Below, piece by piece: positions 30,597 to 47,952 of a DNA stretch of 64,000 nt. The stretch spans positions 744,001 through 808,000 of the forward strand of contig NZ_CP166840.1 in NCBI RefSeq assembly GCF_041346925.1, in the 5' to 3' direction. The stretch comes from Agaribacterium sp. ZY112 (GTDB lineage Bacteria > Pseudomonadota > Gammaproteobacteria > Pseudomonadales > Cellvibrionaceae). The position numbers and the translations under genes were made by a program. Under the pieces are notes generated by a model. The model was not told the DNA's origin. It searched no databases and saw only the letters and a program-made list of their open reading frames with translations. Position 1 is the stretch's first letter. Each line of letters begins with the position of its first letter.

Positions 30597-30603
<7 letters not shown>
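30376..30603 (-). CDS. Small two-helix membrane protein; candidate immunity protein for the Rhs protein
   Basis: 75 residues (72 if the ATG at 30594 is used). Two hydrophobic helices are visible, residues about 15-37 (VWTSLLTVFVMVASLFLVVV) and about 42-66 (HLILGSGRIFIFWLVIYSLV), with a basic end (QRRRKR). Its first ATG overlaps the stop of the giant Rhs gene by 7 bp; the alternative ATG starts 2 bp after that stop. A short gene coupled to the end of an Rhs gene is the position of the immunity gene in polymorphic toxin loci. No sequence family is recognised. Confidence 0.6.
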
Positions 30604-39848
<9,245 letters not shown>

Positions 39849-43974: not shown

Positions 43975-45129
43975 ATGGCTGATTATTCAATTTTTACTTC
44001 TGAAAGTGTATCGGAAGGCCACCCAGATAAAATGGCTGACCAAATTTCAGATGCCATTCTTGATGCGATCTTAAAAGACGATGTGCACAGCCGTGTTGCG
44101 GTTGAGACCATGGTAAAAACCGGCATGGTCGTGGTTGCTGGTGAAGTGCGCACGAATACTTATGTCGATTTAGAAGATTTAATACGCGATGTTGTTGTTG
44201 GCATTGGTTATAACTCTTCCGACGTTGGTTTTGACGGCGCAAGTTGTGCAGTATTAAACGCAATCGGCAAACAAAGTTCTGACATCGCTATGGGTGTGGA
44301 TGAAGCGACGGCTAAAGATTTAGGCGCAGGTGACCAAGGTTTAATGTTTGGTTATGCCACTAATGAAACCGATGTACTAATGCCAGCGCCGATTTATTAC
44401 TCACACCGCCTTGTTGAAAAACAAGCCGAGTTGCGTAAAAACGGCACGCACGCCTGGTCGCGCCCCGATGCAAAAAGCCAGGTTACTTTGCGTTATGAAA
44501 ATGGCCAACCGGTTGCCGTAGATGCGGTTGTGCTTTCAACTCAGCACAGCCCAGATATTAGCCAAGCGCAATTAAAAGAAGCGGTCATGGAAGAAATTAT
44601 TAAACCTGTGCTTCCTGCTGACTGGTTACATAAAGATACCTTGTTCCATATTAATCCAACTGGCCAATTTATTATTGGTGGCCCTGTCGGTGACTGTGGT
44701 TTAACAGGCCGTAAAATTATTGTTGATACTTACGGCGGCATGGCGCGTCATGGTGGTGGCGCTTTCTCTGGTAAAGACCCATCTAAAGTTGACCGCTCTG
44801 CAGCTTATGCTGGCCGTTATGTTGCCAAGAATATTGTTGCTGCCGGTTTGGCTGATCGCTGTGAGATTCAAGTAAGTTACGCAATTGGTGTTGCTGAGCC
44901 AACCTCCATTTCTGTAAATACGTTTGGCACAGGAAAATTAAGTGATGCAGCGATTGTTGATCTTGTTCGCCAGCACTTTGATCTACGCCCTCAAGGCTTG
45001 ATTGATATGTTGGATCTTAAACGTCCTATTTATCAAGCAACGGCAGCTTACGGTCACTTCGGCCGAGAAGAGCCAAACTTTACTTGGGAAAATACTGATA
45101 AAGCTGATTTGTTGAAAGCAGCACTTTAA
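43975..45129 (+). CDS. metK: S-adenosylmethionine synthetase
   Basis: Makes SAM from methionine and ATP. 384 residues, as in E. coli MetK. Signatures: [13 protein letters not shown] at the N-terminus, [12 protein letters not shown] in the middle, and [19 protein letters not shown] (P-loop-like). It follows the regulator gene by 18 bp and starts the enzyme part of the SAM cycle: metK, then ahcY (SAH removal) and metF (methyl-folate supply). Confidence 0.98.
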
Positions 45130-45134
45130 ATTTT

Positions 45135-45155
45135 AAGCGCTTACTTAAAGCGCTT
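45135..45155. terminator. Small hairpin just after metK
   Basis: AAGCGCTT (45135-45142) repeated at 45148-45155 around ACTTA gives an 8-bp stem. No T-tract follows. It may attenuate or stabilise the metK message. Confidence 0.35.
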
Positions 45156-45172
45156 CGGAACTCGGTATGAAC

Positions 45173-45265
45173 TGCTGTAGTTGCGATGTCAGACACGCGT
45201 AAACCCTTCCTTGGGGCTCTCTTTGGCATCCATGCCTCAGAAGGTCTGACATCGCAACTACAGCA
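45173..45265 (-). repeat. Hairpin repeat element E1 (metK-ahcY gap)
   Basis: Perfect 22-bp inverted arms, 45173-45194 and 45244-45265, enclose 49 bp. On the - strand the interior starts CTGAGGCATGGATGCC and ends GCGTGTCTGA, the same core as element E2 in the opposite orientation. The outer 15 bp of the arms (TGCTGTAGTTGCGAT) are not shared with E2 or E3. Confidence 0.85.
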
Positions 45266-45323
45266 ATACATACCTAACAATGTGCCCACCCACTACAAAC
45301 CGATGTGGCACCACAAGTTAAAA

Positions 45324-45429
45324 GGGCAGTGTTTATTTGCCTAAGAAGACTCTCTGAGGCATGGATGCCGAAGTGAAGCCTATAGGGATATATCTACGGC
45401 GTGTCTGATTAGGCAAATAAACACTGCCC
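45324..45429 (+). repeat. Hairpin repeat element E2 (metK-ahcY gap)
   Basis: Perfect 21-bp inverted arms, 45324-45344 and 45409-45429, enclose 64 bp with the core CTGAGGCATGGATGCC (45351-45366) through GGCGTGTCTGA (45398-45408). The core is about 80% identical to E1 by hand alignment, while the arm sequence (GGGCAGTGTTTATTTGCC...) is private to this copy. It ends 29 bp before the ahcY ATG, so it is in the ahcY leader or promoter. Confidence 0.85.
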
Positions 45430-45458
45430 CACAAATACTCTAAGGGAGCTTACCCGAA

Positions 45459-46868
45459 ATGACAGTTGTAATCGCAGCAAATAATTTTAGTGACTTTAAA
45501 GTCGCCGCAAAAACCCAAGAAGAATTTGATCAAGACGCACTTTGGGGCCGTAAAGAAATTGAGATCGCCGAAGGTGAAATGCCTGCACTTATGGCTTTGC
45601 GCACCCGCTATAAAGGTGAACAACCTTTAGCTGGCGCCAAGATCATGGGTTGTATTCACATGACGATTCAGACAGCCGTATTGATTGAAACGCTTGTAGA
45701 ACTCGGTGCAGAAGTGCGTTGGTCTTCATGTAATATTTTCTCAACTCAAGATCACGCCGCAGCTGCTATTGCCGCAGCGGGCATCCCTGTATTTGCTTGG
45801 AAAGGTGAAACAGAAGAAGAGTTCTGGTGGTGCATCGAACAAACCGTTGTTAAAGATGGTGAAGTTTGGGATGCCAATATGATTCTTGACGATGGTGGCG
45901 ACCTCACTCAACTATGTCACGACAAATTCCCTGAACTATTAAATGATATTCACGGCATTAGTGAAGAGACCACAACAGGTGTACATCGCTTAGTTGAAAT
46001 GCAGGAAAAAGGTGAGCTGCTTGTTCCTGCTATCAACGTAAACGACGCCGTCACCAAAAGTAAAAACGATAACAAATACGGTTGTCGTCACAGCTTAAAT
46101 GATGCCATCAAACGCGGTACCGACCACTTGCTTAGCGGTAAAAAAGCACTTGTTATCGGTTACGGTGATGTGGGTAAAGGTTCTGCAGCCTCTCTTCGCC
46201 AAGAAGGTATGATTGTTAAAGTAACTGAAATCGATCCTATCTGTGCAATGCAAGCATGTATGGACGGCTTTGAAGTGGTATCGCCTTATAACAACGGCGT
46301 AAACACTGGCAAAGTTGAAGATATCAACCATATCGTATTAGGCACAACCGATCTTGTTGTAACAACCACCGGCAACGTTAACGTATGTGATGCCGCTATG
46401 TTACAGAGCTTAAAGAACGGCGCTGTTGTTTCAAACATTGGTCACTTCGACAATGAAATTGATACGCAGTTTATGCGTGACAACTGGGAGTGGGATGAGG
46501 TGAAACCTCAAGTCCACAAAATTTACCGCAACAAAGCAGAGAATAATCATCTGATTCTTTTATCAGAAGGTCGCTTAGTTAATCTAGGTAATGCAACTGG
46601 TCACCCAAGCCGTATTATGGATGGTTCTTTTGCGAACCAGGTTCTTGCGCAAATGTATTTGTTTGATAAAAAGTTTGCCGACCTAGATAAATCAGAAAAA
46701 GCAGCCAACGTTTACGTTAAGCTTTTACCTAAGAAGCTGGATGAAGAAGTAGCTGCAGCCATGGTTGAAGGTTTTGGTGGTGTCATCACTAAACTACGTG
46801 ACGACCAAGCTAAGTATATTAATGTAGAAGTCGACGGTCCATTTAAGCCAGAGACTTATAAGTACTAA
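45459..46868 (+). CDS. ahcY: S-adenosylhomocysteine hydrolase
   Basis: Splits SAH to adenosine and homocysteine, removing the product inhibitor of methyltransferases. 469 residues, the longer bacterial form with the insert seen in proteobacteria. Signatures: [40 protein letters not shown], the NAD-binding [21 protein letters not shown], and the C-terminal KPETYKY. Intact. AAGGGAG lies upstream of the ATG. The 329-bp gap to metK is filled by hairpin elements E1 and E2, so a separate ahcY promoter is possible. Confidence 0.98.
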
Positions 46869-46923
46869 ATTATAAAAATGGCTTGTAGAAACCCCTATTC
46901 TGCAAGTCATCTGCCACATTAAC

Positions 46924-47032
46924 GCTCGGAGTGCCGGAGGGGGTTCAGGAAACGCCGTGAACCCATCCATGGGGGCTGCGCACCGACATCCTTGTCGGTG
47001 AGCTTCCTTCAACCCCCTCCGGAACCCCGAGC
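46924..47032 (-). repeat. Hairpin repeat element E3 (ahcY-metF gap)
   Basis: 22-bp arms at 46924-46945 and 47011-47032 match at 20 of 22 positions and enclose 65 bp. On the - strand the interior reads GACAAGGATGTC, then AGCCCCCATGGATGGG, then TTCACGGCGTTTCCTGA. Aligned to E2 it shares GGATG, AGCC, GGAT, ACGGCGT and TGA in register, so it is a diverged member of the same family, again with private arms. It sits 55 bp after ahcY. Confidence 0.8.
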
Positions 47033-47109
47033 TAACATTGTGCCCTTTTAAAGATTAAAGATGGCACGGTGTTAAATGAGTTGGCACTAAACCACATGAG
47101 TGGAAAACA

Positions 47110-47952
47110 ATGAGCGAAGAAAAAATACAATTTAGCTTCGAATTCTTCCCAGCGAAGACCGAAGCAGGACGTGAAAAACTCGTCACCACACGTAACGAGT
47201 TAAACAAATTAAACCCAAAGTACTTTAGTGTTACCTACGGTGCTGGCGGTTCTACCCGTGACAATACCAAAGGCATTGTTACTGAAATGAAAAGCGCCGG
47301 CTTTGACGTTGCGCCTCATTTAAGCTTTGGTGGCGATGACGAAGAAAGCATGATCAAACTGTTAACTGACTATAAAGATGCCGGTATCAATCGTATCGTT
47401 GCGTTGCGCGGTGATATGCCTTCAGGTGTGGGTGGTTCTTTACAGTTAGTTTATGCCAACGAGCTGGTTGCTTTTATTCGCAAACATTTTGGCGACCACT
47501 TCAAGTTGGCGGTTGCCGCTTACCCTGAAATTCACCCTGAAGCCAAAAGCTACGAAAGCGATGTTAATTACCTTAAAGGTAAATTTGACGCGGGTGCTGA
47601 CAGCGCTATTACCCAGTATTTTTATAATCCTGATGCCTTTTTCTATTTTATGGAACAGTGCAACAAGGTAGGCATTAATAAACCCATTTACCCTGGGATT
47701 ATGCCAATTACCAACTATAAAAATCTGGCACGCTTTAGCGACGCCTGTGGTGCGGAAATTCCCCGTTGGATTCGCAAGCGCTTAGAAAGTTATGGCGACG
47801 ATACGGCAAGTATTGCCGCGTTTGGCACAGACCTAGTATCTGAACTTTGTGAAACACTATTAGACAATGGTGCACCGGGTTTTCATTTCTACACAATGAA
47901 TCAGGTTGATCCTACCTCTACCATTGTAAAAAATCTTGGTTTAGCAGACTAA
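47110..47952 (+). CDS. metF: Methylenetetrahydrofolate reductase
   Basis: Reduces 5,10-methylene-THF to 5-methyl-THF for methionine synthesis, FAD-dependent. 280 residues, normal for bacterial MetF. Signatures: FSFEFFPAKTEAGREKL, VTYGAGGSTRDNT, RIVALRGDMP, and PGIMPITNYKNL. Its stop overlaps the rsmE ATG by one base (TAATG), so the two are coupled. It completes the methyl-cycle grouping with metK and ahcY. Confidence 0.97.
   Translation: MSEEKIQFSFEFFPAKTEAGREKLVTTRNELNKLNPKYFSVTYGAGGSTRDNTKGIVTEMKSAGFDVAPHLSFGGDDEESMIKLLTDYKDAGINRIVALRGDMPSGVGGSLQLVYANELVAFIRKHFGDHFKLAVAAYPEIHPEAKSYESDVNYLKGKFDAGADSAITQYFYNPDAFFYFMEQCNKVGINKPIYPGIMPITNYKNLARFSDACGAEIPRWIRKRLESYGDDTASIAAFGTDLVSELCETLLDNGAPGFHFYTMNQVDPTSTIVKNLGLAD

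Follow-up and report, generated by a model that had tools for sequence, protein, structure and literature searches.

A dispersed GGA-loop hairpin repeat family with copy-specific, paired arms in Agaribacterium sp. ZY112 and other Gammaproteobacteria

Three hairpin-forming repeats, E1, E2 and E3, lie close together in a 64,000-nucleotide stretch of the Agaribacterium sp. ZY112 genome (NZ_CP166840.1, positions 744,001 to 808,000; hereafter the window, to which all positions refer). They share a core, and each is closed by inverted arms that differ from those of the other two. This raises the question of how elements with a common centre come to have private ends. An earlier reading of the sequence (the original prediction) had offered two answers: that the arms arise from the target DNA, for example by inverted duplication at insertion, or that arm pairing, rather than arm sequence, is under selection. 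Our analysis identified E1–E3 as copies of a small repeat family found in many Gammaproteobacteria, and sequence comparisons supported a constraint on the pairing of the arms rather than on their sequence. The window genome (4.28 Mb) is labelled G000, other genomes G0xx to G3xx, and fetched loci L0xx to L3xx.

All three elements were found where they had been placed, with a common core and with inverted arms particular to each copy. E1 (45164–45274, minus strand) is a complete hairpin with two GGA loops, in which arms at 45164–45194 and 45244–45274 enclose a core at 45195–45243; 22 bp of perfect pairing (45173–45194 with 45244–45265) lie inside a 31-nt repeat (94%), and the core carries a paired 1-bp deletion, GC/GC replacing GCC/GGC. 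E2 (45324–45429, plus strand) is likewise complete, with arms at 45324–45350 and 45403–45429, a core at 45351–45402 and two GGA loops, and its 27-nt repeat (93%) includes 21 perfect bp (45324–45344 with 45409–45429). E3 (46924–47032, minus strand) is a complete hairpin with 29-nt arms at 46924–46952 and 47004–47032 (83%). As predicted, E1 and E2 stand 58 bp apart in opposite orientation, their GGA strands directed apart. When the GGA strand of each was folded against 200 dinucleotide shuffles, no shuffle was as good (z = −9.4, −10.1 and −7.6 for E1, E2 and E3, respectively), and in all three this strand was 3.6–4.7 kcal/mol more stable than its opposite.

The core pattern occurred twice in the window (0.06 expected). 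By itself it lacked genome-wide specificity: in the window genome it recovered five family members and two other matches while missing E1, and the reversed-pattern control gave 15 matches. A covariance model, built from nine window-genome copies, was therefore used. It produced 25 matches in the window genome (E ≤ 3.6e-6; three weaker matches, E 0.007 to 0.27, were left out of the count) at about 15 places, and 16 of the 25 had not been used for the model. Further copies of the core, for which a genome-wide search had been proposed, thus exist; only E1, E2 and E3 fall within the window. The statement that the repeats all lie in an S-adenosylmethionine-cycle operon describes what the window contains and is not a trait of the family.

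Matches at E ≤ 0.01 were present in 20 of 38 related genomes, the window genome included, with a largest count of at least 116. Three genomes from the genus of G022 held at least 150 (G022 itself), 125 and 108 matches, and 70, 65, 39 and 30 copies were counted in G003, G015, G008 and G010, respectively. In a sample of the class Gammaproteobacteria, 72 of 369 genomes were positive at E ≤ 1e-4, a lower bound set by strict filters and by the scoring of 12 candidates per genome. Around ahcY, 16 of 80 named loci had a family copy no more than 2.5 kb from the gene; eight of these 16 were from Marinobacter, and Microbulbifer, Saccharospirillum and Sediminihaliea were also represented. Two queries of plasmid records and one of phage records returned no family match. 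The fetched loci contained 208 matches (25 from G000, 70 from G022, 40 from G003 and 73 from G038, G039, G021, G015, G029 and G027 together). Removal of five shorter than 80 nt left 203 usable copies, those of G003, G021, G038 and G022 representing the fetched parts of the listed matches. At one window-genome locus (L021, G000:C1:583271-583799), three similar direct copies follow one another at a period of about 220 bp, as after tandem duplication; the second and third have nearly identical arms.

On one of its strands, each copy could form a closing helix of 28–30 bp, a short inner stem and a junction bearing two GGA-loop hairpins. Loops and junction were nearly constant across copies, and in the window genus the closing helix frequently contained a GA-rich internal loop. 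In a structure drawn by hand for the nine window-genome copies, 91.9% of cells were paired, compared with 66.3% after shuffling and 34–46% after sliding, and all 12 outer-stem pairs had changes on both sides. Because the structure was drawn from those very sequences, this test alone is not independent proof. Over the 203 copies, the Watson–Crick fraction remained high outward from the core and collapsed at offset 28–30 in G000, G003, G022 and G038, and at about 26–28 in G021.

The hexaloop of hairpin 2 was ANGGAN in 188 of 195 copies (eight of unusual core length were left out), its second position being variable (G 81, T 57, A 18 and C 7 in 163 copies), and its closing pairs were mostly CCC/GGG (119), followed by TAC/GTA (50), TAT/ATA (10) and TCC/GGA (4). 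GGA was found in 191 of 198 hairpin-1 loops, with five long-core copies left out, and the two GGA starts were 23 nt apart in 140 of 158 copies. Many loops were thus ANGGAN and not strictly AYGGAY. Extra hairpins were inserted in or near the core hairpins of several copies (L100 1330-1440, L102 3011-3176, L178 2547-2659, L181 1235-1374, L188 1097-1239 and L236 4133-4236), that in L181 being a GGCATCCATGCC hairpin inside hairpin 2. In G288 (L321–L346; for example L337, L342 and L345), hairpin 1 had units of ~49 bp inserted in its GGA loop, either alone, in tandem or nested, and these units themselves held two GGA-loop hairpins on the other strand; some element lengths there step through 165, 214, 263 and 312.

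How the arms change was examined in copies that occupy the same site in two genomes (G000/G003 and G022/G038). Over 25 such comparisons, 411 pairs were unchanged, while 222 had changed on both sides and were still paired. Twenty had changed on one side and were still paired, 75 were broken in one copy and 22 in both; internal-loop positions were counted as broken, and two rows came from a pair in opposite order between genomes. In a set of 103 G022 and G038 copies (two of 105, weakly paired, were left out), double changes grew with divergence, one-sided changes stayed near 0.5, and broken pairs rose slowly, from about 0.6 to 2.4. At two to three changed pairs (six comparisons), broken pairs were about as common as double changes, the pattern to be expected when a pair is first broken and then quickly restored by a matching change.

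Arm drift in place is clearest when E1 is compared with its same-site counterpart in G003. These are the only two of the 203 copies with the E1-type core deletion; GGA is kept in both loops of each, and the arms are different yet paired. At this locus 122 of 193 fourfold sites in ahcY differed between the two genomes. The G003 copies at the E2 and E3 sites belonged to another subfamily or carried an insert, so replacement in place also happens.

The mismatches that remained in the arms were unevenly distributed. GT, GA and GG accounted for 260 cells, their complements AC, TC and CC for 43, and others for 24 (copies in which under 18 of 27 positions were paired, six of the 203, were left out, and internal-loop offsets 4–6 were excluded for G000 and G003). 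The ratio was equal whether copies were sense (90:15) or antisense (93:16) to their neighbours, and was 169:23 at offsets outside the model (GU 91, AC 15). By genome, GU:AC was 24:1 in G022, 16:0 in G038, 49:3 in G003, 3:1 in G021 and 19:11 in the window genome, offsets 4–6 being excluded here for all but G022, G038 and G039. Relative to codirectional neighbour genes, 64 copies were sense and 67 antisense; 39 lay in convergent gaps, 18 in divergent gaps, 10 in open reading frames (ORFs) and five at edges. The mismatch bias suggests that the element's own strand folds, as RNA or single-stranded DNA, and not only the read-through mRNA of neighbours. Paired change at shared sites and this strand-specific tolerance of mismatches both favour selection on arm pairing, the second of the two original answers.

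Copies were commonly arranged head to head. Among neighbours within 400 bp, 68 of 71 pairs were minus–plus, their GGA strands directed apart as in E1/E2, two were plus–minus and one was plus–plus; head-to-head pairs contained 136 of the 203 copies, and each strand of such a locus therefore carries one copy. Weakly conserved boxes lay outside the arms. In G022 and G038 these were TGGCACTGAGG before the hairpin and CCGGA after it, and their equivalents in the window genus were less distinct; foot profiles gave TGGCACTGAGG or TTAGG, and CCGGA. The E1/E2 spacer (45275–45323) carries facing boxes GTGCC (about 45282–45286) and GGCAC (about 45307–45311), the like of which were found 5′ of many copies, with a weak consensus. 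The spacers of several G022 pairs (L129, L132 and L133) held a second inverted repeat, of GTAGGGTAGGTAAGCG...CGCCACCTACC type, between the hairpins. The pair at L142 2132/2280 (G022) and that at L184 1643/1796 (G038) occupy the same gap in opposite order (plus–minus and minus–plus), as if the unit had been inverted. A promoter within the pair spacer was considered but unsupported at E1–E3, where one promoter-like site was found in the region (3.0 expected), inside ahcY. One G022 spacer, with only about 20 bp between boxes, also counted against it.

The position of the arms relative to the target was clearest in G288, where the hairpin lies inside a miniature inverted-repeat transposable element (MITE) with CAGCAATTCCC-type terminal inverted repeats and 9-bp target duplications. 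Such duplications with terminal inverted repeats are the usual sign of DDE enzymes. One identical 87-nt hairpin, arms included, occupied seven sites; at six, direct repeats of 9–10 bp were seen by eye outside the CAGCAATTCCC-type ends, and the seventh lacked one end. G288 contained 301 such ends at up to two mismatches, compared with none for the reversed pattern. Thirty loci were fetched, and a second end was within reach in 22 of them; of these 22, 15 had exact direct repeats of at least 9 bp, three had repeats that differed at one base and four had no direct repeat. No autonomous parent of the MITE was recognised in the 30 loci (of about 300 ends), eight of which had no second end in reach and in which ORFs were not searched. 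In G074 and G106 the core lay, by eye, between other inverted repeats. Terminal repeats and target duplication were seen in the G288 MITE; for window-genome copies none was demonstrated.

Arms were also common to copies elsewhere, and arm similarity was graded within genomes. In G022, arms and part of the spacer were common to two pair units at different sites, and apparently to a third, inverted unit. In G038, L184 and L185 had one whole hairpin in common, with a different spacer and partner. Two copies, L132:10160 and L143:9061, had an identical outer 3′ arm and different 5′ arms, suggesting that copies exchange arms by way of the core. Three gaps that hold copies in G022 (L132) were without a match in G038 and G039; in G038 the first of them measures 15 bp and has in common with an arm only the 7-mer AATACCC. 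Exact element ends could not be placed, sister-species gaps being too diverged. Because helix length is near-constant, arms are common to some copies and the G288 duplications lie outside the whole element, the arms, judged from these sequences, are inside the element and are not made from target DNA. Both findings that the original prediction had named as evidence of ordinary element ends, copies with the same arm sequence and an empty site without an arm, were thus made.

Several known systems resemble the family in part. Yersinia palindromic sequences (YPAL, about 168 bp) are represented by an RU-2/YPAL sequence printed in the available part of PMC2759123, and are described as mobile, with target duplications of 3–26 bp, in the accessible text of PMC2229807. 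The YPAL/RU-2 core scored above all 300 shuffles in seven of nine window-genome copies (32–54, compared with shuffle maxima of 21–27), the best local score being 54 for copy L002a (shuffle maximum 27). Both families have a two-hairpin core with GGA loops and are dispersed, intergenic and recently mobile, as far as those two sources describe YPAL. They differ in that here the arms vary per copy under pairing and head-to-head pairs are frequent; rather than sequence conserved over the whole element, it is mainly the core that is common, and arms differ among most copies. TwoAYGGAY (RF01731) likewise has two hairpins with terminal AYGGAY-type loops, but no copy reached its gathering score: E3, the genome's best, gave 40.3 bits, E2 31.1 and E1 29.6, against a cut-off of 43. 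RF01731 had five matches in the window genome at E ≤ 10; every one was a family copy and none exceeded the cut-off, which was not reached in any of 20 loci either. An unrelated family, mir-4659, matched E1 at 37.1 bits (cut-off 92), above E1's TwoAYGGAY score, which we take as an artefact of E1 being a long perfect hairpin. Ysr224 (RF02770) matched opposite the GGA strand at E3, at the G356 copy in L318 and at an unmodelled second stretch in the G288 locus L299; it is, however, an annotated Yersinia small RNA, and these matches reached only 23–30 bits of a cut-off of 70. A literature search, mostly of non-subscription sources and with the original YPAL paper outside it, found no paper linking YPAL, TwoAYGGAY and Ysr224, and the accessible parts of the Teredinibacter and Saccharophagus genome papers contained nothing on this repeat.

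On the sequence evidence, E1–E3 belong to a GGA-loop repeat family with a YPAL/RU-2-like and weakly TwoAYGGAY-like core. The closing helix stays paired while its sequence is free, so that it drifts by paired changes and arms become private to most copies. The reading as a whole, including the mechanism proposed next, we hold with moderate confidence. Arm mismatches would be short-lived: template switching inside the hairpin, together with selection, would probably convert a single mutation into a paired one. According to the accessible part of PMC8794818, stems can be generated and kept up by template switching, which can also produce double changes. The acting molecule may be RNA of the GGA strand, whose two loops, 23 nt apart, could bind a CsrA/RsmA-type dimer. 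ANGGAN is the RsmE loop and RUACARGGAUGU the CsrA consensus in the accessible text of a review (PMC7652899). The likeness to CsrA/RsmA-binding hairpins lies in an ANGGAN hexaloop on a short stem, with two sites per element; the difference is that these are dispersed repeats on both strands and not one small RNA gene. The family would spread, by some mobiliser, like other repeats of the repetitive extragenic palindrome (REP) or MITE type.

Several observations weigh against this reading. At a number of shared sites, E2 and E3 included, the G003 or G038 copy was of another subfamily or had an insert, so some comparison rows do not represent true orthologs. A scarcity of one-sided changes could also result from selection without template switching, which is our inference. 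E1 and L007b fell within the shuffles in the YPAL/RU-2 comparison, and no TwoAYGGAY match at E ≤ 0.01 was found in 13 loci of relatives and the window genome. The strand bias was weaker in the window genome, where stems are less perfect. The orientation counts come from crude ORF calls; near-equal sense and antisense numbers imply that read-through mRNA is not the only selected molecule, and the mismatch pattern would look no different if the fold formed in single-stranded DNA. CsrA binding and an RNA role are proposed from sequence only. A CsrA gene was present in 36 of 38 genomes, but genomes rich in copies do not have correspondingly more CsrA genes (one in G022, with its 150 or more copies).

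The last points lead to the alternative that fared best, a purely selfish REP-like repeat with no RNA function, in which a transposition enzyme would recognise the fold and the GGA loops in single-stranded DNA. Head-to-head is the main dimer arrangement of REPs, which also form heterodimers, in the portion of PMC3733652 available. Orientation to genes was random here, copies were gained, lost or replaced at sites, extra hairpin units were inserted in or near the loops of other copies, and single-stranded DNA accounts for the mismatch asymmetry no less well than RNA does. REPs, BIMEs and REPINs are, like this family, high-copy intergenic palindromes with head-to-head dimers. The contrast with REPs drawn in the original prediction therefore stands only in part, because units are paired head to head as in REPs. 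REPs of the GTAG/CGTC type are 20–40 bp with a tag, whereas here a 28–30 bp stem and ~50-nt core form a branched structure with other boxes, and a linked Y1 transposase (RAYT) was not encountered. As mobiliser, a Y1 transposase was rejected: G003, G015, G008 and G010 had no PF01797 match, Y1 genes do not follow copy number, and 29 of 30 Y1 loci had no family copy within about 1.5 kb. The G288 MITE, with its terminal repeats and 9-bp duplications, points to DDE enzymes, which need no internal fold, and the ANGGAN loop with its free N positions looks like protein–RNA recognition. We consider the selfish explanation somewhat unlikely.

The bolder extension of our own reading, that the family is a mobile CsrA-responsive RNA module in which one GGA-loop core rides on several unrelated mobile backbones across Gammaproteobacteria, often head to head and with arms rewritten under pairing, is tentative and, in our estimation, unlikely to hold in full. 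ANGGAN is the RsmE loop and RUACARGGAUGU the CsrA consensus in the accessible text of a review (PMC7652899). The likeness to CsrA/RsmA-binding hairpins lies in an ANGGAN hexaloop on a short stem, with two sites per element; the difference is that these are dispersed repeats on both strands and not one small RNA gene.

It is improbable that mutation alone made the arms private, with template switching keeping any palindrome perfect without selection for pairing. Stem upkeep and double changes by this route are described (PMC8794818, in part), one-sided changes were rare, and the identical hairpin of L184 and L185 stood beside a different spacer and partner. The 260:43 mismatch asymmetry, near-constant stem length and constant loops nevertheless point to selection on the folded strand. 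Ordinary intrinsic terminators or mRNA 3′-end stabilisers would also be stable intergenic hairpins, and the copies in convergent and divergent gaps (39 and 18) can be set beside all short gaps of the same loci (90 and 73, under a looser ORF cut-off). This explanation is very improbable: no T run followed E1–E3 by eye, and neither a conserved core with constant loops nor equal constraint in antisense copies is needed for termination. A terminator scan found one site, inside ahcY (2.0 expected); limited to loops of 3–8, it would miss these large hairpins. The first of the original answers, that the core inserts and neighbouring DNA is duplicated in inverted form, or that the core lands in an existing palindrome, is hardly credible, since the differing window arms, the 7-mer common to gap and arm, and the dyad symmetries that YPAL targets are reported to span or adjoin (accessible part of PMC2229807) are outweighed by near-constant arm length, boxes outside the arms, identical arms at seven G288 sites with direct repeats outside the element at six, graded similarity within genomes, and an empty gap of 15 bp that is too short for a 30-bp arm and holds no whole arm.

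In the window, E1 lies downstream of an ORF at 43975–45129, E2 and E3 enclose another at 45459–46868, and a third follows E3 at 47110–47952, all on the plus strand. From reading rather than a family search, we take these to be metK-like, ahcY-like and metF-like, respectively. At window-genome loci L017, L018, L016, L020 and L013, copies flank what are presumably metK, ahcY, metF, metG, dapB and gltD genes, and five of these gaps also hold copies in G003. A CGAAGC-type box, read by eye, lies just 3′ of E1 (45152–45158, minus strand), and the same box lies 3′ of several window-genome copies. A TGGCACGGTGTTA box (47062–47074, plus strand) faces E3 and is possibly the remnant of a lost plus-strand partner; the corresponding G003 gap holds a minus–plus pair. 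Elsewhere in the window, the minus strand has one very long ORF at 30597–39848, of 3083 aa.

The family suggests a common core behind YPAL, TwoAYGGAY (a weak match) and Ysr224 (a weak match, on the other strand), labels kept apart in the papers and databases consulted. Its hundreds of long, near-perfect stems with rewritten sequence offer a natural test of whether compensatory changes arise through selection or through template switching. Should the loops bind CsrA, binding sites of a global regulator would be spreading with a mobile repeat. Were the CsrA-responsive module also real, any transcript through a head-to-head locus would carry one core, a genome could hold up to 150 or more CsrA sites, and arms particular to each copy would keep copies from recombining or cross-pairing.

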